DNA from: Tichowtungia aerotolerans
GTDB taxonomy: Bacteria > Verrucomicrobiota > Kiritimatiellia > Kiritimatiellales > Tichowtungiaceae
Reading direction: 5' to 3'
DNA: 64,000 nucleotides
Assembly (NCBI RefSeq): GCF_009905215.1
Contig: NZ_CP047593.1
Span: 2,422,900 to 2,486,899, forward strand
A model generated the notes under the pieces. The model was not told where the DNA came from. It did not search any database and saw only the letters and a list, made by a program, of their open reading frames with translations. Every line of letters begins with the position of its first letter. Within the stretch, counting starts at the first letter, position 1. Shown piece after piece: positions 14,251-51,228 of the stretch. Made by a program: the position numbers and the translations under genes.

Positions 14251-14284
14251 AAAAAGTCCAAAAAACGAACCGCTTTGTCCATGG
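14251..14284 (+). promoter_or_regulatory. island operator, copy 1 (sulfatase 14368)
   Basis: AAAAA followed by half-site GTCCAAA (14256-14262), 14 bp containing ACCG, and half-site GTCCATGG (14277-14284). The half-sites are 21 bp apart. It lies 84 bp upstream of the GTG start. A TATATA-type sequence follows at about 14290. Confidence 0.75.
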
Positions 14285-14367
14285 CGGGGTATATAGAGAA
14301 ACCTCTATCTTTGAGGAAAAATCAAGCGGGAGTCTGGCCGCTCGAGGTTATAAACGGGAGTGTAATA

Positions 14368-15831
14368 GTGAGATTTTTGTCTTTAAAAATCCGGCTGAAA
14401 CTCTGGGGTATGGCTTTTGTCATATGGGGCGCAGCCGGTTGTGTTGCGAAGTCGCAGCCGAATATTATCATCATTTACAGCGACGATCATGGATATGCCG
14501 ACATTGGCGCCAACGGAATGGCCGATGATATCCGTACGCCGAACATTGATTCGCTGGCGAAGGATGGGATTCGTATGACGGCCGGATATGTGTCGGCTCC
14601 GCAGTGCGGGCCGTCGCGTGCGGGATTGATGACGGGCCGTTATCAGGAGCGGTTTGGGTTTGATTACAACGGGCAGGGGCCGCTGCGCAAGTCGGAAACA
14701 ACCATCGCTCAGCGGCTGAAAGAGGCTGGGTATGTGACCGGGATGGTCGGCAAGTGGCACCTTGCGCCGGAGTGGCACCGTGATCGCGGCTGGCTGAAGC
14801 AGAATGCCCCGCAGTTCAAAAATTCAGGCAAACAAGAGCCGCCGGAATTTGAAAAGTATGCTCTGGGCTTTTCTCCGAATGCGTTTGGTTTTTCAGAATA
14901 CTTCTGGGGGCTGCATAACAAATACCGGATCAACTATACTCTGGACGGCGATGTGCTGGATGAAGAGCAGGTTCAGACTTTTGATACATTCCGGGTGGAT
15001 ACACAAAGTGAAGCCGCACTGTCCTTTATCGACCGGAATCACAAAAAGCCGTTCTTTCTCTATCTGGCCTATTACGCGCCGCACGTTCCGGTGGAAGCCA
15101 CGGAAAAATATCTGGCCCGTTTCCCCGGCGAAATGCCGACCCGTCGCCGCTATGCACTGGCGATGATTTCGGCGATGGATGACGGGGTCGGTCGCATTCG
15201 CGAAAAGCTGGATCGTTACGGGATTGATGACAACACGTTGATCTTTTTCATCGCTGACAACGGAGCTCCGACAAAAATTGACAAAGAAGATAAACCGCTG
15301 TCGGTTCCACTGAACGCATGGGACGGTTCACTGAATGATCCATGGGTCGGTGAAAAGGGCATGGTGACTGATGGCGGTATTCGGGTTCCGTATCTTGTCT
15401 GCTGGCCGGGCAAGCTCCCGAAAGGAAAAGTTTACGACAAACCGGTTCTGCAACTGGATGCCACAGCGACCGTGCTGGCAGCTGCCGGCGTGAACGCAGG
15501 TGACTCACTGGACGGCGTGAACCTGATACCGCATTTGACCGGCGATGACAATGGTGCGCCTCATGAAGATCTGTACTGGCGCTTCTGGAACCAGGCAGCG
15601 ATGCGGTCCGGGCGCTGGAAATACCTTTATCTGCCGGATGGACGGCGCTGGCTCTTTGATATGGAAAGTGAAGAGCACGAGCACAAAAACCTGATCGACC
15701 AGTATCCGGAAACTGCCGAGAACCTGCACAAAAATCTGAAGGCGTGGTGCGGCGAGCTGCAGAACAAAGGCCTGCCGGACAAGCCATTGAACAACCAGGA
15801 AAAAGCGTGGTATACGCATTACCTGAAATAG
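14368..15831 (+). CDS. secreted sulfatase (type I, Cys-type)
   Basis: Protein of 487 residues of the alkaline-phosphatase/sulfatase superfamily. The N-terminal signal ends in GAAGC, so it may be a lipoprotein although the lipobox is imperfect. Metal-binding IIIYSDDHGYADIG follows, then the formylglycine motif C-GPSR at residue 80, with GRYQERFG after it. HxHxK-type residues appear as GKWHL, and the second metal site as FFIADNGAP. The start is GTG at 14368 with GGGAG 7 bp upstream; the open frame extends further up but through the operator. The Cys requires a formylglycine-generating enzyme, which is not in this window. Confidence 0.9.
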   Translation: MRFLSLKIRLKLWGMAFVIWGAAGCVAKSQPNIIIIYSDDHGYADIGANGMADDIRTPNIDSLAKDGIRMTAGYVSAPQCGPSRAGLMTGRYQERFGFDYNGQGPLRKSETTIAQRLKEAGYVTGMVGKWHLAPEWHRDRGWLKQNAPQFKNSGKQEPPEFEKYALGFSPNAFGFSEYFWGLHNKYRINYTLDGDVLDEEQVQTFDTFRVDTQSEAALSFIDRNHKKPFFLYLAYYAPHVPVEATEKYLARFPGEMPTRRRYALAMISAMDDGVGRIREKLDRYGIDDNTLIFFIADNGAPTKIDKEDKPLSVPLNAWDGSLNDPWVGEKGMVTDGGIRVPYLVCWPGKLPKGKVYDKPVLQLDATATVLAAAGVNAGDSLDGVNLIPHLTGDDNGAPHEDLYWRFWNQAAMRSGRWKYLYLPDGRRWLFDMESEEHEHKNLIDQYPETAENLHKNLKAWCGELQNKGLPDKPLNNQEKAWYTHYLK

Positions 15832-15888
15832 CGATGGCTGTTATGGAACATTGCACGCTGTCTCCGCACGATGTTGATCGATAGGATC

Positions 15889-16623
15889 TTATTTCCTGCG
15901 GAATACGGACGGAGTGCAGCCGGCAACTTTTTTAAACAGGCGTGAGAAATAATACTGATTTTCAAATCCACACATTTCGGCAATGTTGGCGATCGACAGC
16001 TCTGAATTCCGCAGCAAAGATTTGGCGTGCTCAATGCGGGCATTGATGATGGCTTTTACCGGTGACAGTCCGGTGTATTGGGTGAATAAATGGCGCAGGT
16101 AATCCTTACTTACAAAGAGTTGGCCGGCAATGTCGTCTATCGATAGGTTTCCGCTTTTAGATTCGATGATATATAAAGCTTTGGATACAATGGCCTGTTT
16201 GCGGTCTTGAGGAATGTTTTCTTTAATCACCCGCTTAATCAGTCCCACGGTGGTGATTAACAAACCTTCTGTGATTTTCAGATAGGCCGAGCGTTTTCCT
16301 GAAAGTTCTCCCATTAGTTCTTCGAGATAGTATCTCACTTCTCCTTCTGTATCGACCCAAACGCCGGGCGATGATTCCAGCCCGCTGTTGCCAATGCACA
16401 GGCAGATGGACGTGATGGCGGTTTCTGAAACCTGAGAGTGTGTTTCATGAGGTGGAATCAGGCAAAAGCTGTTGGCCCGAACCGGATATGTATCTTTTCC
16501 AATAGTTGTTTTCCCGGTTCCTTTGAGGAAGTAAACCAGTTCCAGAAAGTCGTGCTGATGAGGTCCGGCAGATACGGTGTCACCTTTTTTAACGGTTACT
16601 TTAAATGCGACTTTTACGTTCAT
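15889..16623 (-). CDS. AraC-family regulator, paralogue 1
   Basis: Protein of 244 residues. An N-terminal cupin-like ligand domain has HQHDFLELVYFLKGTGKT and PPHETHS. The C-terminal domain has two helix-turn-helix motifs (LSIDDIAGQLFVSKDYLRHL; IANIAEMCGFENQYYFSRLF). The start at 16623 aligns with the two other paralogues at 18670 and 62710 and drops a 50-residue upstream extension that would cross the operator. It converges on the sulfatase gene at 14368 and is divergent from the nucleoside-hydrolase gene. Inference: it is one of the proteins that bind the island operator. Confidence 0.88.
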   Translation of the reverse strand: MNVKVAFKVTVKKGDTVSAGPHQHDFLELVYFLKGTGKTTIGKDTYPVRANSFCLIPPHETHSQVSETAITSICLCIGNSGLESSPGVWVDTEGEVRYYLEELMGELSGKRSAYLKITEGLLITTVGLIKRVIKENIPQDRKQAIVSKALYIIESKSGNLSIDDIAGQLFVSKDYLRHLFTQYTGLSPVKAIINARIEHAKSLLRNSELSIANIAEMCGFENQYYFSRLFKKVAGCTPSVFRRK

Positions 16624-16741
16624 TGTTAAATCCCCGAATGGGTCTGTTGAATATAAGAGGATATAAAGAAGTGTTCCAGAAGTGTTTACTGTGGATTTAC
16701 AGATCTCGCATTTTTGAAAATTATAAAATTCACAAATATCC

Positions 16742-16775
16742 GAAAAGTGTATTTCTGTGACCGAATGGTTCATTC
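16742..16775 (+). promoter_or_regulatory. island operator, copy 2 (moderate match)
   Basis: GAAAA, half-site GTGTATT (16747-16753), 14 bp containing ACCG, half-site GTTCATTC (16768-16775). The 21-bp period is exact. It sits between divergent AraC paralogue 1 and the nucleoside-hydrolase gene and could serve either. Confidence 0.6.
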
Positions 16776-16824
16776 AGTATAAAAAGGTTCGCTTGTACTG
16801 TTGAACTGCAGGGCGTTTTGGGGA

Positions 16825-17784
16825 ATGGGAACAAGAGTTGTTGTGAACGATTCGATGAATGTTTTTTTGGATTTCGATATTGGCGGAGATGTGGATGACA
16901 TGATGTGCCTGGCATTTTTGCTGGCATGTGATGAGTTTGATCTGAAAGGAATTTCCACCGTGTTGTGGAACGTATGGGAACGGGCGGAAGAAGCTTTGAC
17001 CTTTTTGCAGGCCGCCGGTCATTGTCACGTTCCGGTTGCTTGCGGGTGTTCATCAACAATGGCGCCCAATTTTCGCCATCCGGACCGCATTGGATATGAC
17101 CAATGGGCACGGGGTTTTAAGCTGTGTGAACAGGCGCAAATTGCCGGGTTTGAGGATTCTGCCGACAGGCCGCTTCCCATTCATGGAGTGGATTTTCTGA
17201 TTGATCGCTGTATGCGTGAGCATGAGCAGGTGATTCCGGTTCTGACGGCGGTGCTGACTGATATGGCAATGGCTTTGGTGAAGGAGCCGCGTCTTTGTGA
17301 CGTTGTGCCTCAGCTGGCCATTATGGCGGGAGAATTTGAAAGCGACCATATTGAACAGAATATTCGCTGCGATGTAACAGCCGCTGATATTGTATTTCGT
17401 TCTAATTTAAAAGCTACAGTGATTCCGTTCAAGGTCGGTGTTGACTGCCGGCTTTGTGAAGAGGAAGTCCGGGCAATTGGAGAGTCGGAAAAACCGTCAT
17501 TAAAGTTGTTATACAGAGCGATTCGAGGTTGGCAGGAATATTGCAGGGAAGACAGTGCGTTGGCAGGGCCCTGTCTCTTCGATCCATGCGTTCCGATAGC
17601 GCTGCTTCGACCTGAGTTTTTTCAATGGAAACAGGGCCGGGTTTTAGTAGATACCGGCGCGGGCGACAGCTGCGGCAGGACCCGGTTTGAGGAGGATGCG
17701 CTTGGTCCGCATCGACTGGCCGTCAGTGTAGACCGTGATCTGGTGGTTGGGTTTTTTATGGAACGTATTCTGGGTAATGCATAA
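16825..17784 (+). CDS. nucleoside hydrolase-fold protein 1
   Basis: Protein of about 319 residues (309 if the ATG at 16855 is used; neither start has a good ribosome site). The calcium-binding motif of inosine-uridine nucleoside hydrolases is present as DFDIGGDVDDMMCLA near the N-terminus, with a later Asp in DTGAGDSCGRT. In the family these enzymes cut the N-glycosidic bond of ribonucleosides. In a polysaccharide island the substrate may differ. No signal peptide is seen, so it is likely cytoplasmic. It is related to the protein at 45117 only in fold and motif. Confidence 0.75.
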   Translation: MGTRVVVNDSMNVFLDFDIGGDVDDMMCLAFLLACDEFDLKGISTVLWNVWERAEEALTFLQAAGHCHVPVACGCSSTMAPNFRHPDRIGYDQWARGFKLCEQAQIAGFEDSADRPLPIHGVDFLIDRCMREHEQVIPVLTAVLTDMAMALVKEPRLCDVVPQLAIMAGEFESDHIEQNIRCDVTAADIVFRSNLKATVIPFKVGVDCRLCEEEVRAIGESEKPSLKLLYRAIRGWQEYCREDSALAGPCLFDPCVPIALLRPEFFQWKQGRVLVDTGAGDSCGRTRFEEDALGPHRLAVSVDRDLVVGFFMERILGNA

Positions 17785-17844
17785 GGCCTCCACACAATCA
17801 TTCAGGAGATTGTTTCAGTTTGGAGAGAAACATGAATCCGGACA

Positions 17845-17904
17845 GGTTCCAATGTTTGGAACCGACTGCGTCGGGGCATGTGTTGTTTTTCCAAACATCG
17901 GAAA
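17845..17904. terminator. paired palindromes between convergent genes, possible two-way terminator
   Basis: Two copies of the dispersed palindrome in inverted relation. The first (17845-17863) is GGTTCCAA, TGT, TTGGAACC. The second (17889-17903) is TTCCAA, ACA, TCGGAA with flanking T and A runs. They lie between the stops of the nucleoside-hydrolase gene (+) and AraC paralogue 2 (-). A hairpin with a run of T or A on either side suits termination in both directions. Confidence 0.5.
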
Positions 17905-17917
17905 ATCCCGGTATGAA

Positions 17918-18670
17918 TTATGAATCGGAGGAAGACGGCTTGTTTCGGAATGCTGATGGAGTGGCGCCGGTTATATTCTTAAACATTTTCGAGAAATAGT
18001 ATGGGTTTTCGACTCCGCAGTTTTCGGCAATTTTTGCGATTGGGAAGTCGGTGTTTAGAAGAAGGTGTTTTGCATGTTCAATTCGGGCATTGATAATCGC
18101 TTTGATCGGTGACTGTCCGGTATATTGGGTGAAGAGATGCCGAAAATAATTTTTGCTGATGAACAGTTGTCCCGCGACTTCATCAATGGAAAGGTTGCCA
18201 TCTTTCCCCTCAATAATTTTCATGGCTTTTGAAATCAGGGCCTGTTTCCGATCCTGTGGAACATTTTCGTTGATCGCTCTCTGGATCAGTCCGGTGATGG
18301 TCGTTGCCAGTCCTTTTGTTACAAGGGAGTATGCCGGACGCTGGTAGGAGAGTTCTTCCATCAGTTTTTCTAAATAGTCTTTGATTTTTCCGTCGGCGTC
18401 CACCCAGAGCCCAATCGGGGAATCCAGCTCGCAGTTATCGAACCGCAGGCAGATAGAGGTAATGTCTGATTCCGATGTCTGGCTGTGGGTTGTATTGGGG
18501 GGAATCAGACAGAAACAATTGCTTTGAATTCGATAAATGTCATCTCCAATCATGGTTTGCCCCGTTCCTGATAGAAAATAAACCAATTCCATGGATTCAT
18601 GCCTGTGGTTTTTAGCAGAAATTAAGTCTCCTTTTTCCACCGTTACTTTAAATGCGATTTTTATATCCAT
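17918..18670 (-). CDS. AraC-family regulator, paralogue 2
   Basis: Protein of 250 residues with the same layout as paralogue 1: cupin-like domain (ENHRHESMELVYFLSGTGQT without its first residues matches closely), then two helix-turn-helix motifs (LSIDEVAGQLFISKNYFRHL; IAKIAENCGVENPYYFSKMF). The strong similarity to the proteins at 15889 and 61982 points to duplication within the island. It is divergent from the beta-strand protein gene at 18916, with a weak operator copy in the gap. Confidence 0.88.
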   Translation of the reverse strand: MDIKIAFKVTVEKGDLISAKNHRHESMELVYFLSGTGQTMIGDDIYRIQSNCFCLIPPNTTHSQTSESDITSICLRFDNCELDSPIGLWVDADGKIKDYLEKLMEELSYQRPAYSLVTKGLATTITGLIQRAINENVPQDRKQALISKAMKIIEGKDGNLSIDEVAGQLFISKNYFRHLFTQYTGQSPIKAIINARIEHAKHLLLNTDFPIAKIAENCGVENPYYFSKMFKNITGATPSAFRNKPSSSDS

Positions 18671-18812
18671 AACTGTCCTTTGGCTCTTTCAGTATAGGAG
18701 AGAAACAGGCTTCTCCAAATATTTTATTGAAGGCTTTGAGGATAAAGCATCGGTTTGGGTTGCTGGAGAGAGACTGTCTCATTTGTGAGAAATGACGAAA
18801 GTTTTGAGAGCC

Positions 18813-18846
18813 GAAATTTTAATTTATATAACCGATTCTTCTATTC
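18813..18846 (+). promoter_or_regulatory. island operator, copy 3 (weak left half)
   Basis: The right part is recognisable: ACCG at 18831-18834, four bases, then TTCTATTC at 18839-18846, comparable to GTCTATTG in the copy at 33715. The left half-site position reads TTTAATT and is poor. It lies 70 bp upstream of the gene at 18916. Confidence 0.35.
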
Positions 18847-18915
18847 CACGTATCGAGACTGGACGTAATACTCAATACACTAAGAGAATGTAAATCAATG
18901 ATCAGGAGGTAAGCG

Positions 18916-20298
18916 ATGAGAAGGGCGGTTTGCGTATTCATATTTCTGATGGGAATGGCTGCATGGGCGTTTGCTGGGATCAATTATTATCAGGGGGACG
19001 GAGCAAACAATCTGTTCACGACAGCAGAGAGCTGGTCTTTAGGAGTCTTGACAGAAAACGATACCGTCTATTTTTCTGAAGACGGATGGACCGTTCGTAA
19101 TGAGGTTGCTGCAACGACAGCGTCGGGGTCTGTAGGGCTCAGCCATTTGTACTTTAATTCCAATATTGTAAATAATATTCGCTTTTTCTCTAACTCCGAC
19201 TCCGCGCGTCTTCGGGTGGCCGGCCGAATCAAGATTCTGGAAGGCGTTGCCGGAAAAGTGAATCTGGATGGTCGCTGGAACTTTCGGGATAAAGACCTGA
19301 ATATTGATCATTACGGAACCAACACTCTTGAAATCAGCTGGATTATGGTGGAAACGACCGGAACTCCGGGGGCTGATCTGAATTATTACGGCAATAATAT
19401 GAATAAAATCATAATTCAGTCCGGAACGGCCGGAACCGGTCGGGCGAATTATACGGGACGATCCGCTTTGAGTAGTGTGGATGTGGATCTTTCTGTGGAG
19501 GCAAATTCAACCGGCGGCGGTCTGGGGCTTGGAGCGGATCTTCGATTGAATAACGCTATCTTGAATTTGATCGACAGCGGGACGCTTTCGAATGACATGA
19601 TTACGATCGCAGGATCATTGTCTGTTTTCGACGTTTCCGGCACAACTGATGGAAGTTATTCATATAACGGTGTGATGCGCGGGTTTAAAGGAGCTGTTGC
19701 CGGTAACCTGACTTTAACCGGGGACCTGCTGCCTGGTGATGAAACGGGAGGGATCGGTACGCTGACGTTTGAAGACGAGCTGACGATTGGAGCCACGTGT
19801 GAGGTCGGGTTTGAACTGGCCGCAGCAACAAACGGGGGCTTCGACGTTGTTGCCGGGGGAGCCAGCAGCACATTAACTGTTGATTCCGGTTCATCCTGGA
19901 TTTTTGATTTCAGTGATATTTCGGAAGAGGCAATTACGAACGGTGCTGCTTTTGCAGTGCTGGATGGGTGGTCAACTATTTCAGGGAGCAGCACCAATAT
20001 AACCGTTTCCGGTCTTCCGGATGGATATGTTTTTGGCAGTTCCACTTTATTTACAGCTGGATTTGTGTCGGTTCTTCCCGTTGGGTTTGAAGGACCTGCT
20101 GTGAATTTGTCGGTTGCTGGAAATCGTATGGTAATGGGACTGGATGCGGTTGCCGGCTTTTCATATACGATTCAGTCTACGACGAACCTGGTGGAAGGTT
20201 CCTGGAGTAATATGATGGAAGGCGTTAGTGGCAATGGAATGATTTATATGACGAATGATATCCTGTATCCTCAGGCGTTTTTCCAGATTGTTTATTAA
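18916..20298 (+). CDS. secreted beta-strand protein with C-terminal tail module
   Basis: Protein of 460 residues. It has a signal peptide (MRRAVCVFIFLMGMAAWAFA), then a Gly/Asn/Thr-rich, beta-strand-rich body without recognisable catalytic residues, of the kind found in autotransporter-associated or beta-helix proteins. The last 45 residues are a module shared with several island proteins (SYTIQSTTNLVEGSWSN, ending AFFQIVY). The start has AGGAGGT 7 bp upstream. Its body is closely related to residues 1-460 of the next gene, so the two arose by duplication. Function is unknown; binding of glycan at the cell surface is a guess. Confidence 0.75.
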   Translation: MRRAVCVFIFLMGMAAWAFAGINYYQGDGANNLFTTAESWSLGVLTENDTVYFSEDGWTVRNEVAATTASGSVGLSHLYFNSNIVNNIRFFSNSDSARLRVAGRIKILEGVAGKVNLDGRWNFRDKDLNIDHYGTNTLEISWIMVETTGTPGADLNYYGNNMNKIIIQSGTAGTGRANYTGRSALSSVDVDLSVEANSTGGGLGLGADLRLNNAILNLIDSGTLSNDMITIAGSLSVFDVSGTTDGSYSYNGVMRGFKGAVAGNLTLTGDLLPGDETGGIGTLTFEDELTIGATCEVGFELAAATNGGFDVVAGGASSTLTVDSGSSWIFDFSDISEEAITNGAAFAVLDGWSTISGSSTNITVSGLPDGYVFGSSTLFTAGFVSVLPVGFEGPAVNLSVAGNRMVMGLDAVAGFSYTIQSTTNLVEGSWSNMMEGVSGNGMIYMTNDILYPQAFFQIVY

Positions 20299-20323
20299 TA
20301 ACGAGTCCATCTTCGTACAGATT

Positions 20324-20361
20324 GGGCAGGTCGGCGGATTGATGCGACCTGTCCTTCTTTT
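20324..20361 (+). terminator. hairpin terminator or attenuator between beta-strand genes
   Basis: Ten-base stem (GGGCAGGTCG/CGACCTGTCC, one G-T pair) followed by TTCTTTT. It lies only about 10 bp before the ribosome site of the gene at 20374, and no separate operator copy follows it, so partial read-through to the downstream gene is likely. Confidence 0.7.
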
Positions 20362-20373
20362 GAAAGGAATGCG

Positions 20374-23430: not shown

Positions 23431-23455
23431 GTCGCGAGCAGAGAGGTTTGTTCGG

Positions 23456-23489
23456 AAAAAGTTCATGGACTCGACCGTCTGGTCCATGG
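23456..23489 (+). promoter_or_regulatory. island operator, copy 4 (strong)
   Basis: AAAAA, half-site GTTCATG (23461-23467), 14 bp with ACCG, half-site GTCCATGG (23482-23489). It lies 59 bp before the sulfatase start at 23549. A TATTGTG/TTTTTTAAT stretch 20-30 bp downstream could hold the -10 element. Confidence 0.78.
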
Positions 23490-23548
23490 CTTAAACTGCA
23501 GCTTCTTTGTATTGTGTTTTTTAATAAAAATGAGATATGGAGATAAAA

Positions 23549-25278: not shown

Positions 25279-25366
25279 CATCAATTTACAGATGTGAACG
25301 GGGATTATGTTGCGCCGGCGTGCGCCTTTTTTGCATTTCCAGACATTGGAAAACGGTAAAAGGTCC

Positions 25367-25401
25367 AAAAAAGTTCATCTGCTTGCCTGTTTTATCCATG
25401 G
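25367..25401 (+). promoter_or_regulatory. island operator, copy 5 (strong)
   Basis: AAAAAA, half-site GTTCATC (25373-25379), 14 bp (CCTG in the ACCG position), half-site ATCCATGG (25394-25401). The 21-bp period is exact. It lies 70 bp before the GH3 start; TATTATG directly downstream may be the -10 element. Confidence 0.72.
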
Positions 25402-25470
25402 AGGTATTATGCAGGATGCTTGTATCCTAAGGTGTTGTTGAAATGGCGCTTAGGAAAAAGGAGTTGCAGG

Positions 25471-28050: not shown

Positions 28051-28200
28051 AATTTACAGATTTTCAAAGGTTTGGAAGAAACCTGAGCTGCAATGCAGTT
28101 GCTTCCCGAACATTGGAACCGGGCTGATTGACATATCACCCAGAATGCACCAAATCATCAGGATAATATATGTTTGGTTCCTGAATTATACGAAACATTC

Positions 28201-28235
28201 GGAAATCTCTATTTTTTCAACCGCTTTGTCCATTG
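28201..28235 (+). promoter_or_regulatory. island operator, copy 6
   Basis: GGAAA, half-site CTCTATT (28207-28213), 14 bp with AACCG, half-site GTCCATTG (28228-28235). The core of the 14-bp spacer and right half is nearly identical to copy 8 at 33715. It lies 85 bp before the ATG at 28321. The remainder of 28051-28320 holds imperfect copies of the dispersed palindrome near 28063 and 28104. Confidence 0.7.
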
Positions 28236-28320
28236 CCGAATCCGATATGCATTTGCACCATATTCAATGCACTCTGGGATAGGATTGCCTATAGCGAAGA
28301 ACTGTGAAAGGAGAACTCCG

Positions 28321-33656: not shown

Positions 33657-33691
33657 CCATGCAGGTTTCGGTTCATTGGATGGACATTTTT
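33657..33691 (-). promoter_or_regulatory. island operator, copy 7 (minus strand)
   Basis: Read on the minus strand: AAAAAT, half-site GTCCATC (33685-33679), 14 bp with AACCG, half-site CTGCATGG (33664-33657). The 21-bp period is exact. It lies 52 bp upstream of the FG-GAP gene start. Confidence 0.72.
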
Positions 33692-33714
33692 GGGATTTTG
33701 TAACGGCATAATCG

Positions 33715-33748
33715 GAAACGTCCATTTGTTCAACCGCTTTGTCTATTG
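33715..33748 (+). promoter_or_regulatory. island operator, copy 8 (strong)
   Basis: GAAAC, half-site GTCCATT (33720-33726), 14 bp with AACCG, half-site GTCTATTG (33741-33748). It lies 80 bp before the start at 33829 and 23 bp from the oppositely oriented copy 7. Confidence 0.75.
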
Positions 33749-36012: not shown

Positions 36013-36218
36013 CGGTATGAATTGCTTTCGGTTCGGTAAAACAACGAAGAAGAATGACAATCTGAAGCACCGGAACCGTGGATTGTCGGGAGTGCTTCTT
36101 CTGGCGGCGGTTGCGTGTTTTCTGCGTCTGTCTGCCTGTGCGAAACTGATGAACAGACGCTGCGCCGGTTAGGACTTGGCACTGCGGATGACGCGCAAAT
36201 CAGCAAGAGTGAAAAAGT
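36013..36218 (+). other. decayed coding scraps
   Basis: A 51-codon open frame at 36017-36172 begins MNCFRFGKTTKK and contains a signal-like stretch (GLSGVLLLAAVACF). A different frame nearby reads DEQTLRRLGLGTADDAQ. Both look like coding residue but neither can be assigned. They lie between the truncated gene at 33829 and the GH3 remnant. Confidence 0.3.
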
Positions 36219-36302
36219 TGGGTGCTCGAATCCGGCGAATATGAAATCCAGGTTGGTAAATCCTCATGCGATATTCAGCTGACAGGCAGTTTGTCGTTAT
36301 AG
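36219..36302 (+). pseudogene. remnant of a second GH3 gene (last 28 codons)
   Basis: Reads WVLESGEYEIQVGKSSCDIQ then LTGSLSL and stop, against WVLEPGEFEIQVGKSSRDIQ, LTGSLSL at the end of the GH3 gene at 25471. By eye about 10 of 84 bases differ. The homology continues past the stop: the spacer up to about 36420 aligns with 28051-28235, including a decayed operator. So a GH3-operator-beta-strand module existed here twice and this GH3 copy was lost. Confidence 0.8.
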
Positions 36303-36383
36303 AGTGCACAGTTTTTGGATTTAAGAAAAAGCTGTGAGACTTCATCATTTTATGTTTTCGGCTTCAGAATTATAGGGAAGAGC

Positions 36384-36418
36384 CGAAAATCTTACCTATT
36401 CAATTGCCTTGTTTGCTG
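36384..36418 (+). promoter_or_regulatory. decayed island operator, copy 9
   Basis: GAAAA, TCTTACC (36390-36396), 14 bp, GTTTGCTG (36411-36418). It aligns with copy 6 through the surrounding homologous spacer, so it is a degraded duplicate and probably inactive. Confidence 0.3.
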
Positions 36419-36501
36419 GTGAACGACTGCATATGGATGATTGAACGCATTTTTGATAATGGTTTTCAGTGTATCTGCTTGGTAGACAAACGCTTTATCT
36501 G

Positions 36502-36535
36502 AAAAAGTCCATGAAGACAACCGTTGTATCCATGG
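36502..36535 (+). promoter_or_regulatory. island operator, copy 10 (strong)
   Basis: AAAAA, half-site GTCCATG (36507-36513), 14 bp with ACCG, half-site ATCCATGG (36528-36535). A TATATT -10-like sequence lies about 20 bp downstream. It serves the gene at 36610 and probably the rhamnosidase after it. Confidence 0.78.
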
Positions 36536-36609
36536 TGGTAAAAGCTTGTCTGTTATATTTTCTATTCAGAACAATCGATAGGTTATCTGTTGATAAAAAG
36601 GAGGATCGA

Positions 36610-37959
36610 ATGAATAGAGTTGTCTTATACTGCTTCTTAATTGCTGGTGGCGCTGTGTTTGGTGATATGAACTATTTCACCGGTGCGGTGAATTATGGAA
36701 TGAATAATGCGGGCAACTGGTCGCTTGGTGTTATTCCGGAGGCGGATGATGACGTGGTGGTTGCAGACTGGATAACCGCTAGGTCTGTTGCGCAGGCAAC
36801 CATGAATCTGACTGTAAATTCGGTGACATTGAACAATGAATTAAACGGTGTGACCGATGCTTTTCAGCTCAGAGGTGGTAATAATGGTACTGCGCAGCGG
36901 TTTGCGATTGGGGATTTCATTACGGTGAATTCAGATGTAACCCGTAATATTACGATGATGTATCAGATGTCAATTTTGAGTACAGATGCTCCTGGGTTAT
37001 TGACGGTTAATCATTATGGCAGCGGAACGTTTCGTCATGCGGTCAGTACGCTCAATCAGCAGTCACATGCAGGTTCCGTCAAGTGGGGCGGGAATAATTT
37101 GAATATGGTTCAGATCGATACATCACAAAATGTATATTCCGGAAGTACGACGTTCAGTAATATCAGCGCAACGGTTTCCGGGGTCTCGCCTTCTTCGGCC
37201 TCGGGACCATTGGGGACAGGGATTGTTATTTTGCAGGATGGATCAGTGCTTGCGCTGACCGGGTCTGCCAAACTCGGCAATTCGCAGATTCTGGTGAACA
37301 GCGGAACAACGCTGGATGTGTCCGGAATGAACAGTGGAATTTATACCAATTCCGCTATTCTTCAGGGGAGCGGAACTGTGGTTGGCGATATTTGGCAGAC
37401 CGGGCAGATCCGTGCCGGCGGCGGGACTGCAACTTTCACATTTGAAGATGATATTACGATGACAGCTTCCTCGTGGACGCAGTTTGAGATCAATCCGGAT
37501 GCTGGGGTCTGTGATATTCTGGCGGGTAACGGGGATAACCGGATTGCTTTCCAGAATGAGGCGGATATCCAGTTTGCTTTTACTGATAATGTAACAAACG
37601 GGGCATCCTTCACCGTGCTGACCAATTGGGGAGACGTTGCCCACGGCGCCGTGAATTTTGATGCGATCGGTTTGGGACCGTTTCAGACACTGGATTACAG
37701 TCAGTTGTTTTCTGCCGGTACCGTTACGGTTATCGATAACGGAAATCAGCCGCAACTGGCCATGTCGTTTGCTTCCACCAATGCTGTGCTCTGCTGGGAA
37801 GGCGTAAGCAACTTAACCTATAATGTTCAGTTTTGCGATGATCTGGTGTCGGGCAACTGGACCAACGTTGAAGGGGAAATGACCGGCGAAGGAACGCTTT
37901 GTGTGACCAATGAGTTTTCCGGGCCAAACGGTTTCTACCGGATTTATGTTGAGCAGTAG
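36610..37959 (+). CDS. secreted beta-strand protein with C-terminal tail module
   Basis: Protein of 449 residues with a signal peptide (MNRVVLYCFLIAGGAVFG) and a Gly/Asn/Ser/Thr-rich body (NAGNWSLGVIPEADDDVVV, LDVSGMNSGIYTN). The tail module is present (TYNVQFCDDLVSGNWTN, ending GFYRIYVEQ). The body is more distant from the proteins at 18916 and 28321 but keeps the NWSLGV opening. GGAGGA precedes the ATG at 36610. A hairpin separates it from the GH78 gene. No catalytic residues were recognised. Confidence 0.72.
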   Translation: MNRVVLYCFLIAGGAVFGDMNYFTGAVNYGMNNAGNWSLGVIPEADDDVVVADWITARSVAQATMNLTVNSVTLNNELNGVTDAFQLRGGNNGTAQRFAIGDFITVNSDVTRNITMMYQMSILSTDAPGLLTVNHYGSGTFRHAVSTLNQQSHAGSVKWGGNNLNMVQIDTSQNVYSGSTTFSNISATVSGVSPSSASGPLGTGIVILQDGSVLALTGSAKLGNSQILVNSGTTLDVSGMNSGIYTNSAILQGSGTVVGDIWQTGQIRAGGGTATFTFEDDITMTASSWTQFEINPDAGVCDILAGNGDNRIAFQNEADIQFAFTDNVTNGASFTVLTNWGDVAHGAVNFDAIGLGPFQTLDYSQLFSAGTVTVIDNGNQPQLAMSFASTNAVLCWEGVSNLTYNVQFCDDLVSGNWTNVEGEMTGEGTLCVTNEFSGPNGFYRIYVEQ

Positions 37960-37991
37960 CTGTCGGCTGATATCAGAATCTTGGTGTGATT

Positions 37992-38027
37992 ATTCAAGGC
38001 CCCTTTTTTGAAGGGGCCTTGAATTTG
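37992..38027 (+). terminator. hairpin between beta-strand gene and rhamnosidase gene
   Basis: Fourteen-base perfect stem (ATTCAAGGCCCCTT/AAGGGGCCTTGAAT) with a five-base loop and a short T run. It lies 23 bp before the rhamnosidase start, with no operator in between, so it may reduce rather than block read-through. Confidence 0.7.
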
Positions 38028-38049
38028 AGAAAAGAAAGAGAAGTGCGTT

Positions 38050-40803
38050 ATGTATCGGATCTGTTTTTTCGGTCTGCTGTTGTGTTTTGCCGGGGAGCTT
38101 GTTGCCGGCACCAATATTCCAATACGCTTGGAGAGCGAGAACCGCAGTTCGCCGTTTATTGATAATCCGGTTCCTGAATTGAGTTGGAAAATGGAGGATC
38201 GTCGGCAGGGCGCGGCCCAGACGGCATATCAGATTCTGGTGGCCGCTTCCCCGAAACTGTTGGCGGCAGATGCCGGCGATTTGTGGGACAGCGGCAAAGT
38301 GGTCAGTTCGCAGTCGCATCTGGTCCCTTACGGCGGCGCGAAGCTGAATTCGTGTCAGCGGGTCTGGTGGAAAGTCAGGATCTGGGATCAGAACGGTGTA
38401 GTTTCCGAATGGAGCGAGCGGGCGACTTGGGAAATGGCCTTACTGGATAAATCCGATTGGTCGGCGAAGTGGATTGCTGCTCCGGAACTGGCAGAAGTCC
38501 GGCTCCCGGAACTGGATGTTTTCCTGAAAGCAACGGCATGGGATGCAGGTGCCGACGCACGGTTCCGTCAGCGCAAGCCGTCATTGCTGTTTCGTAAAGA
38601 GGTCGTTCTGGATCAGAAAACGGATCATGCAGTGATGCGTGTCTGTGGCCTTGGTGCATTTAATCTGACTGTTAATGGCGAAAAGGTCGGCGACCACATT
38701 CTGGACCCGATCCATACCGATTATGATCGGCAGGCCCGCTATGTGAATTTTGATGTGACCGATCTGTTGAAGTCCGGCGCGAACTGCATCGGGATCGAGG
38801 TGGTCGATGGGTGGTTTGGTCAGTACGTGGTTTGGAACGGCGGGTTCTCCCATGGTGAGCCCCGTCTGCTGGCGCAGCTGGAGGTTGAGAAAACGGATGG
38901 AACCCGTTTTGTCATTGGAACCGATATCGACTGGAAAGTTCATTACGGACCGGTGATTCGCTCCAACATGTATGCCGGTGAATATTATGACGCGCGGTTT
39001 GAACTGCCGGGCTGGAATCATCCGGGATTTGATGCATCCGCATGGCCCGCGGCGGTTTCCTCAAAACCCGGCACGCCGAAGCTGGTGGCGCAGGTTGCGC
39101 CGCCGATGCGGTTTCATAAAGTCATCAAGCCGGTCGCGAAGCATTCGCCTCGCAAAGGCGTGTGGACTTTTGACATGGGCCAGAATTTTGCCGGAGTAGT
39201 ACGTCTCAAGCCGGTGGAGTTTCCGCGAGGAACTGTGATTACAATGCGGCTGGGCGAATATATCAGGGCTGATGATGGATGTCCGGCCACGATCGGTGTG
39301 TCTGCCACGAAAGTTCATCAGACGCAGCAGTATGTTTGCAAAGGCGGCGGTCCGGAAGAGTGGACGCCGCAGTTTTGCTATTCCGGATTCCGGTATGTGG
39401 AAATCAGCGGGCTTCCCGAAGAGCCGGATCTTGATTTGATTGACGGAGTACAACTCCGCACGGCGGTTGAGCCTGCAGGGCATTTCCGCTGTTCGTATGA
39501 TCTGTTCAACACGATGCATGAAATGGCGGTGTGGACGCTGGAGTCCAACATTCACGGCGTTCTGGAAGACTGCCCGACGCGCGAGCGCTGCGGCTGGCTG
39601 GGCGATGCCTATTCGGCCTTCGGCGCATGGTTCATGAATTTCCGCATGGATTCGTTTAACCGGAAATTCATTGAAGACATCCGCGATTCCTATTCGGTCC
39701 ATCCGGTGGACGGGCTGCTCATGGAGATTGCCGGCGGCAAGCGCAGGCATGGTCCGCCAACGATGTATGACTGGATGAATGCCACGATGGTGATTCCCTG
39801 GCGGCAGTATCTTTATTACGGCGACGGGTCGGAGCTGGAGCGGCACTATAAATACATGAAGGATTTTGCCGACGCGGTCTTTCCGATTGTTCAGGAAAGA
39901 TACAATTCTGGCAAACTGGAGCTGGGGCGCAAGGACCGCTTTTTCTTCGGCGACTGGGGCGACATCCCATTGGTCGAAACGAAGCGTAACGGTGCGCTGC
40001 TGTTTCCAGCTGAAACACCGGCCATGCTGACCGGCACGCAGATGCTGATTTACGGATTTCAGAACCTTGCTCGAAGCGCCGATGCGCTTGGTCATTCTGC
40101 CGAACGCAATCATTATAAAAAATTGACGGAGGAGCTGGCTGACCGGGCTAATGCTGTATACTTCGATTCTGAACATGCGACTTACGGTTCGCAGTCAGCC
40201 AATGTCTGGGCGCTTTATCTGGGTATGGTCCCCGAAAAATCAAAAGAGCAGTTTCTTCTGCGGATCGGGCAGGAAGTCCGTATGGAGGATCGGGGACAGA
40301 TTACAGTCGGGCAGTTCGGGCTTGGCCCGCTGTTCCCGATGCTGACCGATACGGGAAACGGTGACTTGGTCGAAAAACTTTGTTCGGCGGAGGGCGGGCG
40401 ATTTGAGCAGATGATCAACCGCGGTGGCACAACGCTTTGGGAATACCAGGGGCGCTGTCATCCCGGCTCGGATCCAATTGGGTCTCTGAACCATCCGGCA
40501 TTTTCGGGTTACGACACGTGGTTCTATCAGTACCTTTGCGGCATCCGTCCGATGGCGGAATTCCCCGGGTTTAAAAAGATCCTGTTCAAGCCGTACTTCG
40601 CGTCGTGGGTAGATTGGGCTGAAGCGGACTATGAAAGTCCGTACGGTACGATCCAAAGCCGCTGGAAACGCAACGGCGACACGGTTATCTGGAATATTGT
40701 TGTTCCGCCGAACAGCTGCGCTGAAATCCAATTCCCTGAAGGCTCTGGCAAATCCGCCGAAACGGTGCCCTCTGGTAAATATCAGTTTCGACTGGGTATA
40801 TAG
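38050..40803 (+). CDS. secreted GH78 alpha-L-rhamnosidase
   Basis: Protein of 917 residues. It has a signal peptide (MYRICFFGLLLCFAGELVAG), N-terminal beta-sandwich domains (PELSWKMEDRRQGAAQTAYQ typed in the family as P-x-L-x-W...Q-x-A-Y-x-I), and a central sandwich with FDMGQNFAGVVRL. The (alpha/alpha)6 barrel has the family signature DCPTRERCGWLGDA at about residues 507-520 and a C-terminal sandwich with IRPMAEFPGFKK. In the family it removes terminal alpha-L-rhamnose by inversion. Length is typical. Periplasmic or surface location is inferred. Confidence 0.94.
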   Translation: MYRICFFGLLLCFAGELVAGTNIPIRLESENRSSPFIDNPVPELSWKMEDRRQGAAQTAYQILVAASPKLLAADAGDLWDSGKVVSSQSHLVPYGGAKLNSCQRVWWKVRIWDQNGVVSEWSERATWEMALLDKSDWSAKWIAAPELAEVRLPELDVFLKATAWDAGADARFRQRKPSLLFRKEVVLDQKTDHAVMRVCGLGAFNLTVNGEKVGDHILDPIHTDYDRQARYVNFDVTDLLKSGANCIGIEVVDGWFGQYVVWNGGFSHGEPRLLAQLEVEKTDGTRFVIGTDIDWKVHYGPVIRSNMYAGEYYDARFELPGWNHPGFDASAWPAAVSSKPGTPKLVAQVAPPMRFHKVIKPVAKHSPRKGVWTFDMGQNFAGVVRLKPVEFPRGTVITMRLGEYIRADDGCPATIGVSATKVHQTQQYVCKGGGPEEWTPQFCYSGFRYVEISGLPEEPDLDLIDGVQLRTAVEPAGHFRCSYDLFNTMHEMAVWTLESNIHGVLEDCPTRERCGWLGDAYSAFGAWFMNFRMDSFNRKFIEDIRDSYSVHPVDGLLMEIAGGKRRHGPPTMYDWMNATMVIPWRQYLYYGDGSELERHYKYMKDFADAVFPIVQERYNSGKLELGRKDRFFFGDWGDIPLVETKRNGALLFPAETPAMLTGTQMLIYGFQNLARSADALGHSAERNHYKKLTEELADRANAVYFDSEHATYGSQSANVWALYLGMVPEKSKEQFLLRIGQEVRMEDRGQITVGQFGLGPLFPMLTDTGNGDLVEKLCSAEGGRFEQMINRGGTTLWEYQGRCHPGSDPIGSLNHPAFSGYDTWFYQYLCGIRPMAEFPGFKKILFKPYFASWVDWAEADYESPYGTIQSRWKRNGDTVIWNIVVPPNSCAEIQFPEGSGKSAETVPSGKYQFRLGI

Positions 40804-40890
40804 GCTGTATGCACGAAAGGGGCAAACACACTAAAACGTGAACTGCAAATATTCTTTTTATCAACCTGGCACGTGTTCCGACGTAGTCGG

Positions 40891-43800
40891 TTATTCGGAG
40901 AATATTCTGTAGAAGGCATTGGTTTCCGTGGCGGTGTTGTCCTCGAAAGTCATCATCTGGTTGGCGGTCAACGGGCCGATGGCCTGGACAGTGATCCATT
41001 CGGGCGAGGTAAGGCTATCGCTTCGTTTGAGAATGTAGGTGTATCCGCTGTATCCGGTCATCTGCATTTGAACTACGCTCGAAATGCCGAGGTCGTGAAT
41101 GAGCATCGGCGATGAGGTTTTATCGGCGTTGCGGAAGTTTTCGAGGCCTGTCGAGTTTGTGCTGTCGAGGCCGTCAAATGCGTCCGGGACGCCGTCGTTG
41201 TCGAGATCGCCGTCGGAAGCCAGAATCCAGTCATACGCGAAGGTCTGGTTTGCGGCGCTGGTGGCCGGGTCGACGCGCAGGCAGGTGATGGTTCCGGTCC
41301 AGTTGGAGCTGTTGCTGACATGGAATGCGCAGACCTGCCAGTCCGGCGAATTGGTATAGTTGACGACCTGCACTTTCCAGGCAGAGTCTTCGTCGTGTTT
41401 CCAGTAGAAAACAGCCAGAGCGTTGGTTTCTCCTCGCAGTTTATAATAGATGGTTTCAATCTGATCGCTGCTGAATGCGCAGTTTGTGGTGTAGAGGTAG
41501 GGATCGGTTGAGGTCGATTGAGCGGAAAGTATTCCGTCGGATACGGCGGCATTGGTGATGTTGGCCCAGTTGGTCCACCCTTCGAAATCATCGTCGGTGT
41601 TGAAGTGGAATGCAATGTCTGATGCGTCGTAAGGATTGCGGCCGGCTGCGTTTTCATCGGCGTCGCTCATGAAGTCGCCGTCGGAGTCGGGGTCGCGGTA
41701 GTTTTCGAGTCCGTCGTTGTCGGGGTCGCCGGAGCCTTCGGTGCTGTCAGCGATTCCGTCGTCATCTAAGTCGCCGTCTGATTCCGGCATGAAACGCACC
41801 CAGTCGATGGAGACGGTTGCGCCAGAATAAATGGTGGGATCCAGGCGAACCCGTTTCATCATGCCGGTCCAGTTGCTCAGCGAGGAGAGATCGAGGGTGC
41901 ACTCGTGCCATTCGTCATCCGGCGGCACAGAAAAGGTGGTGGCATAGGTTCCGCCGTCCAGAGGGAAATAGAAAAACTGAGCGTCGCTGCTGGTTCCGCT
42001 TGCGCTGATTTTGAGGCGGACCTGAAGGGTTTTGTAGATGTCGGCATTGACTGCGTCGCCGGAGTCGACCCACCCGCTGTTGAGGTCAAAATAGGGATCG
42101 CTGCCGGTTTGGGCGGTCCAGATTCCGTTGGAAACCGTGATGTTTGAAATGCTGTGCCGATTGACGAAGTCGTTGGTTGAGTTTCCGTCCCAAGTGTTCA
42201 CAAACAGTGGCATAGGGACCATCCACGGCGAAACAAATCCGGTTCCTGACCGGCGGGCCCGGACGCGCCACCAGTAGAATCCGTCGATGGAGTCTCCAAT
42301 GTACACATGATATGCATTGGTCAGTCCGGAGAGGTTAATCAGTTTGTTGGTAAATCCGAAATCGGTTGCGAGCTGGAATTCGTAGAGGAACGATGAATTG
42401 TCCGGTTCCGTTCCCGGTGTCCATGTGAAGACCGGGTTCGGGGAGTTGATGATGGGGTTATACACCGGAGTGCGCGGCGGGAGCATCAGGGATGAGAGCG
42501 CGATGTAGTCAATCGAACAGGTGGCTCCGGCCTGATTGACCGGATCCAAGCGAAGTTTGGAGGCGATTCCCGTCCAGCGGGGCGTGGCCGACAGGTTCAG
42601 TTCATAGGTGTGCGTGCCGGCGCTGACCGAAAAATTCACTGCACTGTATCCGAGATCTTCAGTCCACCAGTAAAACTGGCCGGTTCCGCTTGTTGATGAG
42701 GTCATGCGGATGCGGACGCGGTCATAACGTTCTGTGTCGATGAAACGCCGGTCGTCATCGACCGCCAGATAAAAGTAATGATCGCCGGTGCTGCCGGTTC
42801 CGGTGAAGCTTCCGTCGGATATGCTCCAGGTTAAGTAGTTGCGCACGGATGTAACTTCGCCGGCTTCATTGAAGTGCCAGCACGGACAGGCCTGCAGCTG
42901 CACCCAGTCCAGCTCCATGCTGTTGCCGGCTCCGCCGGCGAACGTCAGCTTCAGATTTTTGATTTCTTTTTCTCTCCAGTCGGACAGTTCGGAAAGGTTG
43001 ACCCGGCAGAGGTTCCATCCCTGTTCGACGGGAACTGAAACGGACGCGACTGCGTTGTCGGTGTCTGTCCACTGAAAGACGAGATCTCCGGACGGCGCAT
43101 TGCTGAAGAATATGCGGGCGCTCAGTGCGTGGTAGCCGTCAGAGATCAGGGTGTGCCGGTTTTCGTCCAGTTCCAGATCCATCGATGCAGATGGCTGTCC
43201 AAATGTTGCGTAGCAGACGCCGGTGCTGACGTTCAGGGAACTCCATCCCGCCGATGTTTCGATGTCCGAAGAATAACTCATGGTCCAGAGGGCGCTCCGG
43301 GATTCGGCGGTGGTTTCATATTCGGCCAGTCCGGAATACGCCGAATTGCTGCCGGCGGCAAGAAACTGCTGGAGGGCGGTTTCCAGCTCGGAACCCAGAA
43401 TGACGTTGTCCGTCAGTGTCCAGTGGAACGGACAGATGATGTGGGCGTGGGCATTGAATACGGAATCCAGAGCAGTCATGTTTTCGGCAACCGTTGTGAG
43501 GTTCGGGTTGTACTCGACCAGTCCCCAGCTTTTATCGTCGGCGTAGAGGGCATTGAAAATATCTGTATCGACCGCATTGTCTCCGTATGTCGTCACTCCG
43601 TTCCCGCCGTCGTTTACAAACGTGGTGCTCAGAGGCGTCGCTTTCATCGTGTACAGAATGTCCGAGGTATCGTTTTCGCCGCCCGGCTGCTGATGGCCGA
43701 ACAGGCGGTCGGGATTCCAGCCCGCTTCGCGGGTGGCGGTCATTTGTGACTGTTCAAAATGCTGCACCTGTGCGACGCGGAATTCGTGCCATTTCTGCCA

Positions 43801-44676
43801 CCAGAGACCGGTGGAGGTTGAGTTCCACGAAACCGTGGTTGGCGGTTCCACATCATCCCAACTGCTGTACGACAGCCCGAATGTCGAGTTCAGCTCGGAA
43901 ATGCTGCTGTATTGAGCCTTCCCGTCATAAATCCCCGACCCGCTCAGCCAGTCGTGGAATTCCTGCTTGGACCATTCGCTGTAGTCGCTGAAGTTGCCGT
44001 TTCTTATATTCTGGCCGGTTTCAGAAGTCAGCGTACAAAAGGTGACAATATCCGGCGCGTCTTCGCGCAGCCATGCGAAGTAGCGGGCGGCCAGCCGGGT
44101 ATTGCGCAGTATGTAATCATGAACCAGTGGCGCATAGGGGGAAAGTGTGAGCTGCATTTCCAGAAAAGCAAAAGAATCGCCGGTTTCATCAATCGTTGGG
44201 TCCTGATCGAGTGAGGAGTTGCGAATCAGTCCGTTGCGGTCTTTTTGCAGCAGCGAACCGTTATCATATTTTTCGAGGTAGTTGTGCAGGATATCGACGG
44301 ACTGATCGGCCGAGTCGCTCCACGGCAGCGCATTGAGGTGTGTGCCGATGGTCATGTCCGTCCGGCGTCCGGCGTTCAGACTGTCCCGGTATGCGGAAAC
44401 GGACGGTAGATAGTCGTAGTAGCCGCCGGCGGCCCGACCGATTTTCGGGGCCTGGGCGCCGAATCCCGCCTTGATGTTGTACGGCATCATTCCGCCCGTG
44501 TTGGTCAGCATGGATTGGCGATATCCTTCCGAGGCGACTCCGGTTCCTACGCCGATGGTGTTGATGTAAAACGTTTTCCAGTAAACCGTATCCAGCGGAT
44601 CCGAGAAAGTGTTCCCGGCAGCCATCCATAGAAGAAGAAAGACCGTCTTTCCTGGAAAAGAATCGTTGAAGTTCAT
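40891..44676 (-). CDS. large secreted putative glycoside hydrolase with calcium-type repeats
   Basis: Protein of 1261 residues. A signal sequence is followed by about 480 residues resembling a beta-galactosidase-like TIM barrel (IGTHLNALPWSD, FAFLEMQLTLSPYAPLVHDY, FCTLTSETGQN, WHEFRVAQVQHF), with a candidate acid in TSETGQN. Several beta-sandwich domains follow, each with the pattern W-T/S-G-x-x-x-x-L-R-x-D-P (for example IASKLRLDPVNQAG and KRVRLDPTIYSGATVS). A thrombospondin type 3-like acidic repeat (about residues 955-1020: DPDNDGLENYRDPDSDGD) and the tail module (TYILKRSDSLTSPEW, ending AFYRIFSE) complete it. I cannot assign a GH family. Confidence 0.7.
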   Translation of the reverse strand: MNFNDSFPGKTVFLLLWMAAGNTFSDPLDTVYWKTFYINTIGVGTGVASEGYRQSMLTNTGGMMPYNIKAGFGAQAPKIGRAAGGYYDYLPSVSAYRDSLNAGRRTDMTIGTHLNALPWSDSADQSVDILHNYLEKYDNGSLLQKDRNGLIRNSSLDQDPTIDETGDSFAFLEMQLTLSPYAPLVHDYILRNTRLAARYFAWLREDAPDIVTFCTLTSETGQNIRNGNFSDYSEWSKQEFHDWLSGSGIYDGKAQYSSISELNSTFGLSYSSWDDVEPPTTVSWNSTSTGLWWQKWHEFRVAQVQHFEQSQMTATREAGWNPDRLFGHQQPGGENDTSDILYTMKATPLSTTFVNDGGNGVTTYGDNAVDTDIFNALYADDKSWGLVEYNPNLTTVAENMTALDSVFNAHAHIICPFHWTLTDNVILGSELETALQQFLAAGSNSAYSGLAEYETTAESRSALWTMSYSSDIETSAGWSSLNVSTGVCYATFGQPSASMDLELDENRHTLISDGYHALSARIFFSNAPSGDLVFQWTDTDNAVASVSVPVEQGWNLCRVNLSELSDWREKEIKNLKLTFAGGAGNSMELDWVQLQACPCWHFNEAGEVTSVRNYLTWSISDGSFTGTGSTGDHYFYLAVDDDRRFIDTERYDRVRIRMTSSTSGTGQFYWWTEDLGYSAVNFSVSAGTHTYELNLSATPRWTGIASKLRLDPVNQAGATCSIDYIALSSLMLPPRTPVYNPIINSPNPVFTWTPGTEPDNSSFLYEFQLATDFGFTNKLINLSGLTNAYHVYIGDSIDGFYWWRVRARRSGTGFVSPWMVPMPLFVNTWDGNSTNDFVNRHSISNITVSNGIWTAQTGSDPYFDLNSGWVDSGDAVNADIYKTLQVRLKISASGTSSDAQFFYFPLDGGTYATTFSVPPDDEWHECTLDLSSLSNWTGMMKRVRLDPTIYSGATVSIDWVRFMPESDGDLDDDGIADSTEGSGDPDNDGLENYRDPDSDGDFMSDADENAAGRNPYDASDIAFHFNTDDDFEGWTNWANITNAAVSDGILSAQSTSTDPYLYTTNCAFSSDQIETIYYKLRGETNALAVFYWKHDEDSAWKVQVVNYTNSPDWQVCAFHVSNSSNWTGTITCLRVDPATSAANQTFAYDWILASDGDLDNDGVPDAFDGLDSTNSTGLENFRNADKTSSPMLIHDLGISSVVQMQMTGYSGYTYILKRSDSLTSPEWITVQAIGPLTANQMMTFEDNTATETNAFYRIFSE

Positions 44677-44752
44677 TTTGAATCAGGTCTCCTTTTTAGA
44701 CGAGTACAAGATTATTGTAGAAAACAATAATATTAGGTTTCATATATTGTGA

Positions 44753-44787
44753 CCATGGACAAAACCGGCACTGAATTTGCAGAAAAC
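44753..44787 (-). promoter_or_regulatory. island operator, copy 11 (minus strand, moderate)
   Basis: On the minus strand the right half-site is a perfect GTCCATGG (44760-44753), preceded by 14 bp ending GGTTTT. The left half reads TGCAAAT and is poor. It lies 77 bp upstream of the gene ending at 40891. Confidence 0.5.
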
Positions 44788-44872
44788 CTGCTGTTTCTGG
44801 AAACAGCGTTGAAAGGAGTTCGAATCAAAAATGGATTCTCGGATTTGAGAGAGGATGTTTTAGCTGAATCGC

Positions 44873-44907
44873 CGGGATTTATATTTTTTTAGCCGTTTCG
44901 TTCATTA
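44873..44907 (+). promoter_or_regulatory. island operator, copy 12 (moderate)
   Basis: Left half TTATATT (44879-44885), 14 bp with GCCG, right half GTTCATTA (44900-44907). It is upstream of copy 13, repeating the weak-plus-strong pair seen at 36384/36502. Confidence 0.4.
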
Positions 44908-44996
44908 TTGATATTTAAATGCTTGTTTAGAGTGTTAGGCATAAACTCAGGTGTTTTCTGAACGTGAAGGTTCAGTGCCTGCCTGTTGATTGATCC

Positions 44997-45032
44997 AAAA
45001 AAAGTCAATGGATTGACCTGTTCTGTCCATGG
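44997..45032 (+). promoter_or_regulatory. island operator, copy 13 (strong), start of the 10-gene operon
   Basis: AAAAAAA, half-site GTCAATG (45004-45010), 14 bp with ACCTG, half-site GTCCATGG (45025-45032). TTTAATATTAAAT about 15-25 bp downstream contains a good -10 candidate. It is the last operator copy seen, so it probably drives 45117-61977. The rest of 44677-45116 shows only copies 11 and 12. Confidence 0.78.
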
Positions 45033-51225: not shown

Positions 51226-51228
51226 TTA

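Follow-up and report, generated by a model that had tools for sequence, protein, structure and literature searches.

The window analysed here, 64,000 nucleotides of the Tichowtungia aerotolerans contig NZ_CP047593.1 (positions 2,422,900-2,486,899), contains a 48-kb island of genes for sulfatases and sugar-cleaving enzymes, whose gene groups are headed by eight to eleven copies of one 37-bp element. With a probability of about 0.82, we read these sites as two-half-site operators for the dimer of an AraC/XylS-type regulator encoded in the island itself (AraC3, with AraC1 and AraC2), which would activate the island's operons. They are very probably landing sites of this regulator, since the rest of the genome nearly lacks them and distant relatives carry them too, next to the same AraC-type gene. 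The motif, its period, orientation and promoter spacing, its restriction to the island and its co-occurrence with the regulator were computed; we infer that the protein binds there, that it does so as a dimer and activates transcription instead of repressing it, and what the inducer is.

A direct repeat with a 21-bp period

Aligned with one another, the copies cited in a preliminary description of the island form a direct repeat of CCG-N4-GTCCAT with a period of 21, whose consensus is roughly TCCGAAAA-GT[C/G]CAT-n5-TnAACCGnTTT-GTCCAT[G/T]G. CCG-N4-GTCCAT is present in both half-sites, the distal one being looser. That description had placed an ACCG in the spacer: the ACCG is real but, since both halves read CCG-N4-GTCCAT, it opens the second half-site as its first box and is not just spacer. 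Likewise, in the first half-site the A-rich stretch comes after the first box. The period itself, given as exactly 21 bp, is borne out: over 18 sites from the island and its relatives, self-identity of the element is 0.49 at offset 21, against at most 0.30 at all other offsets from 15 to 27. Two bipartite direct half-sites about 21 bp apart are what AraC/XylS-type dimer operators have, and the proposed likeness to AraC-family operators holds.

Each of the eight clear sites, when left out of the position weight matrix, still beats all other positions in the window, with scores of 17.7-34.8, compared with about 15 at the best other place; the highest score among 30 Markov-shuffled windows is 20.3. 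When the genome (one contig of 3.88 Mb) is searched with a covariance model built from the eight on sequence alone, exactly these eight come back, with E values from 1.5e-7 to 2e-5, followed by a single marginal match at 0.015. As the eight sites are the training set, what counts is how they rank when left out and that no other matches appear; on both counts, all eight clear copies prove real. A second model, R2, in which sites of relatives are added to those of the island-only model, R1, finds no further strong site in the genome outside the known ones, within a search that begins with a fast first look and can miss weak sites elsewhere. With R1 and R2 alike, the motif is enriched only in the island, where the preliminary description had placed all its copies. 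The simple pattern GTCCATG-N14-GTCCATGG, allowing 3 mismatches, is uninformative: it gives 163 matches spread genome-wide, against 62 for the reversed control.

The marginal site (genome position 1,274,466; stretch L009, ~1500-1540) lies between a different AraC-family gene and a galactokinase gene, and this other AraC protein may use a related operator. The second-best site outside the island (genome position 2,238,991; stretch L157, ~4992; R2 E 0.033) is followed by more than 1 kb without a long open reading frame.

Ten sites are well supported, namely the eight clear ones together with 16747 and 18818. All ten fall between genes, although coding sequence takes up about 93% of the island and only about 7% is non-coding, and all ten point towards the downstream gene, as previously described and as the fixed orientation of AraC/XylS operators implies. 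The distance to the gene, estimated before at about 50-125 bp, is corrected to about 49-87 bp, counted from where the proximal half-site ends to the likeliest start codon.

Across the 18 sites, a −10-like hexamer (TAnnnT) follows the proximal GTCCAT after 22-23 nt; whatever the distance, none of 1000 shuffles of the downstream sequences matches its mean score. A 17-nt spacer would put the start of the −35 hexamer at the last base of GTCCAT or directly after it, so that the proximal half-site is predicted to adjoin or overlap the −35 position. Judged from sequence, the geometry is that of a class II activator, as at E. coli araBAD, where the proximal half-site araI2 also abuts the −35 position. 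This placement makes activation by contact with RNA polymerase most likely. Each AraC monomer would place two helix-turn-helices (HTHs) in consecutive major grooves of its half-site, CCG-N4-GTCCAT, and a dimer from the AraC1-3 clade would occupy the two direct half-sites, 21 bp or two helical turns apart. Its promoter-proximal half-site would end at the −35 position, 22-23 nt ahead of the TAnnnT −10, where the DNA-bound, ligand-loaded dimer may touch or recruit RNA polymerase. In this way one polysaccharide-degradation island could have its dispersed operons for sulfatases, glycosidases and transporters turned on together. Our guess for the inducer is a sugar from a sulfated, rhamnose-containing polysaccharide, because the island combines sulfatases with GH78, GH106 and GH39-like relatives of rhamnosidases; the GH39-like protein weakly matches an alpha-1,4-L-rhamnosidase.

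Table 1 Operators, regulators and boundaries of the island, in window coordinates
Feature	Position	Strand	Context	Basis
Operator	14248..14284	+	before sulfatase gene, start ~14368	leave-one-out rank 1; genome-wide E 6e-7
Weaker operator (16747)	16739..16775	+	between divergent AraC1 and nucleoside-hydrolase-like gene, start 16801-16855	R2 window E 0.0033
Weaker operator (18818)	18810..18846	+	between divergent AraC2 and gene 18916-20298	matrix score 16.0, top non-training match in window; R2 E 0.017
Operator	23453..23489	+	before sulfatase 23537-25093	leave-one-out rank 1
Operator	25365..25401	+	before GH3 gene 25420-28050	leave-one-out rank 1
Operator	28199..28235	+	before gene starting ~28321	leave-one-out rank 1
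Operator	33657..33693	-	before FG-GAP/UnbV_ASPIC gene 31212-33605(-)	leave-one-out rank 1, score 17.7; genome-wide E 2e-5
Operator	33712..33748	+	before gene starting ~33829; divergent pair with 33657..33693(-)	leave-one-out rank 1
Decayed operator (36384)	36382..36418	+	relic of duplicated GH3 end and operator	alignment of 27961-28286 with 36213-36465
Operator	36499..36535	+	before gene 36610-37959, then co-directional GH78 rhamnosidase 38050-40803	genome's best site, E 1.5e-7
Single half-site (GTCCATGG), proximal only	44753..44789	-	before gene 40891-44676(-)	R2 E 0.38, positions 27-40 only
Probable weak second operator (44879)	44871..44907	+	operon 45117-61977	R2 window E 0.033; 0.68 identity to sites 18818 and 28207
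Operator	44996..45032	+	head of ten-gene operon 45117-61977	leave-one-out rank 1
Main target operon, ten genes	45117..61977	+	nucleoside-hydrolase-like, GH106-like, sulfatase, MFS, sulfatase, unknown, 3 sulfatases, GH3	Pfam; tight or overlapping genes
AraC1, cupin and AraC HTH	15892..16623	-	likely start 16623, not 16773	Pfam; N-terminal alignment
AraC2, cupin and AraC HTH	17918..18670	-	sister paralogue of AraC1	Pfam; tree
AraC3, cupin and AraC HTH	61982..62710	-	the clade's conserved orthologue and likeliest cognate regulator	Pfam; tree; identity to relatives
Left flanking direct repeat	13391..14164		transposase-like remnant	blastn, 87.6% to right copy
Right flanking direct repeat	62864..63594			blastn

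The copies described earlier as moderate or weak divide into two kinds. Sites 16747 and 18818 are real but weaker operators, and 44879 is probably one as well: all three gain support from R2, a model that includes the relatives' sites and excludes these three. The minus-strand copy at 44753 is one half-site, and 36384 is a decayed duplicate. The claim that the repeat precedes every transcription unit was overstated, as no operator faces any of the three araC genes and gene 40891-44676 has a half-site only.

The regulators and their relatives

Each of the three regulators has the C-terminal double HTH of the family (HTH_18/HTH_AraC; Pfam E values for HTH_18 of 2.8e-23, 1.3e-21 and 3.7e-22) and an N-terminal cupin domain for ligand binding and dimerisation, for which AraC_binding or Cupin_2 exceeds the cut-offs. 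In the tree, they and three proteins from relatives make up a single clade (98/99), separate from the ten other AraC proteins of this genome that were included. We can refine the earlier picture of three paralogues: by their sequences, AraC3 is the conserved orthologue, clustering with the protein of one relative, G204 (78.5% identity, and 67% to that of another, G081), while AraC1 and AraC2 are a sister pair of additional paralogues. The curated NCBIfam family closest to the clade is that of E. coli AraC, NF007860, to which the three score 80.2, 75.2 and 77.1 bits against a cut-off of 208; being far under it, they are not arabinose regulators, though of the same superfamily. The DNA-binding domain of the clade aligns to that of E. 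coli AraC (2k9s), its second-best match among solved structures.

Among 288 genomes of the class, close relatives of the island's AraC proteins occur only in three metagenome-assembled genomes (MAGs), G204 (Kiritimatiellales), G081 (Pontiellaceae) and G045 (Verrucomicrobia). Model R1 finds the same element in all three, each time on the contig that bears the AraC gene, and the comparison with related genomes thereby supports the earlier assignment. There are four matches on contig C178 of G081, and one with a second, weaker one on C37 of G204, whose best match is on C11; on the 3.2-kb contig C193 of G045, a repeat of the island type lies directly upstream of the araC gene. The place of site 16747 beside araC is also occupied by an operator in G081. 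Two other contigs of G081 carry further sites, in the training set of neither model, upstream of a CBM6-GH78 operon and of a GH2/CBM6 gene; the former is a divergent pair, like 33657/33712 in the island.

The targets are conserved as well. The genes for a nucleoside-hydrolase-like protein, a GH106 enzyme and an MFS transporter are orthologous in all three members of the order (64-66%, 54-60% and 50-51% identity), and an operator heads each of these operons, at 45004 here, at 5312 of C11 in G204 and at 15264 of C178 in G081. Another stands upstream of both sulfatase 23537 and its 72%-identical orthologue in G204.

On C37 of G204 (stretch L073, ~1230-1265), the operator separates araC from a divergently oriented orthologue of gene 40891-44676, its GTCCAT boxes being, by eye, 22 rather than 21 bp apart. 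In G149, a member of the order without the AraC clade, an intergenic site-like sequence is found upstream of a zinc alcohol dehydrogenase gene (stretch L154, ~5865). Viral contigs hold no relative of the regulator, and a scan of genome contigs gave only the same three orthologue records and distant HTHs of Paenibacillus-type AraC proteins.

Several known regulators have operators of comparable build: the half-sites are TAGC-N7-TCCATA for AraC, TGCA-N6-GGNTA-N6 twice for XylS and CACC-N5-CTTCAA-N6 twice for MekR, with a period of 21 for the latter two (PMC4514859). In the same notation the island site is ACCG-N4-GTCCAT-N7 twice, also 21; like XylS and MekR it thus has two bipartite direct half-sites, although the sequences of the boxes are unlike theirs (PMC4514859). 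The araI1-araI2 half-sites of E. coli araBAD are direct as well, and the B-box TCCAT of araI1 is contained in GTCCAT (PMC4514859). In contrast, the A-box of the island is of CCG type and not TAGC, the N-terminal domain of AraC1-3 is a short cupin without equivalence to the arabinose regulator, and many promoters are served inside one island.

It is possible, though rather doubtful, that the sensor domains of the three paralogues have partly diverged and that the proteins share a common set of operators or compete for it. A mobile, repeat-flanked island would then integrate several glycan signals through one common operator code, which would travel with it between Kiritimatiellota lineages.

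Weighing other explanations

Some observations speak against operators of the island's own regulators. AraC3 has no operator of its own, and the genome contains 47 AraC-type HTH matches, more than 40 of which lie outside the island's set and could bind. Conservation rests on three genomes, since MAGs of the same genus lack regulator and motif: in 13 other genomes of the genus, we found neither the regulator nor a strong motif. R1 matches with E up to 0.05 occur in 19 of 284 genomes without the AraC clade, against about 14 expected by chance, most of them inside open reading frames and few intergenic. Finally, eight of the 18 sites behind the spacing and offset statistics belong to relatives and were picked up by the island's own model.

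The abundance of AraC-type HTHs and the related-looking site beside the galactokinase gene (E 0.015) would also suit operators whose main regulator is an AraC-family protein encoded elsewhere in the genome. We hold this to be improbable: the element accompanies the AraC1-3 clade in three genomes, on the same contigs, and the strong sites are confined to the island, as a locally encoded regulator would give. The chance that AraC represses at these sites is small too, if slightly larger. Two elements do share some intergenic regions (33657(-)/33712(+), 44871(+)/44996(+) and, on contig C144 of G081, 5669(-)/5688(+)), where looping between paired sites could be imagined; however, most targets have one site only, and abutment on the −35 and strict orientation are traits of class II activation by AraC.

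The sites could in principle be promoters for an alternative sigma factor of the extracytoplasmic function (ECF) type, since each has two conserved blocks that keep a fixed distance upstream of the gene and always follow its orientation. This is very unlikely, as the blocks repeat each other at offset 21, a separate housekeeping-type −10 follows at a fixed distance downstream, and none of the island genes scanned showed a sigma-factor domain. We give hardly any credence to the idea that duplication of promoter segments together with paralogous genes is all that makes the copies alike. Paralogous pairs are present (28321 and 33829; 18977 and 20448), and by its sequence 36384 is a decaying duplicate of the operator at 28201 that came along when the end of a GH3 gene was duplicated: positions 27961-28064 recur at 36213-36316 with 86% identity, and the alignment runs on through the operator, scoring 68 against at most 44 in 200 shuffles. 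Among the other copies, in contrast, the sites are 59% identical and their 60-bp flanks on average 26% and 29%, about chance, so duplication does not account for the operator family and was rejected as the cause of likeness for every copy except 36384; besides, the genes they head belong to unrelated families, and other genomes have such sites too. Control by one or more of the AraC paralogues, short of every transcription unit, is the reading that co-occurrence, period, −10 spacing and restriction to the island support.

A probable regulon bounded by repeats

The island is bounded by 774-bp direct repeats that include an apparent decayed transposase/integrase-like end and have only one more copy in the genome, diverged, at 2,652,387; a tRNA-Leu(caa) gene (12959-13045) lies just outside. 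The repeats suggest that the island was acquired or is mobile as a unit. As the regulon and the repeat-bounded segment coincide, switch, regulators and targets may have moved together.

Genes 28321-30675 and 33829-36012 are large paralogues, 70% identical in DNA, each with its own operator. Neither has a Pfam or NCBIfam match, nor does the former have one in PDB. Family searches of the unknown island genes gave nothing, and neither did PDB searches of genes 28174 and 40891. Both paralogues, with 36610-37959 and 40891-44676, are candidate new glycan-active families. Two nucleoside-hydrolase-like (IU_nuc_hydro) proteins, 16801-17784 and 45117-46118, stand within this polysaccharide regulon; two relatives also keep the second beside GH106, which hints at a glycosidic role other than on nucleosides.

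Sulfatases are very numerous in Kiritimatiellota, with 165 in one species, and their co-regulation has merely been suggested (PMC10880615). Our literature search found no paper combining Kiritimatiellota, sulfatase and AraC and no prior description of this operator; sulfatase regulation in the group appears to be undescribed so far. Polysaccharide-utilization loci of Bacteroidota are governed by hybrid two-component systems, SusR or ECF/anti-sigma pairs. These regulators are also encoded locally for a glycan-degradation island, whereas here a one-component cupin-AraC protein is paired with a sharply defined operator. The regulon is new and well delimited, in a little-studied bacterial group; the switch itself is of an ordinary, well-known kind. 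One substrate-specific regulon is defined by a concrete operator, the clade of its cognate regulators and a precise list of genes. The shared operator lets sulfatases and genes without a family (28321, 33829, 36610 and 40891) be assigned to a common substrate, and it offers a template for locating the operators of the genome's many other AraC genes.

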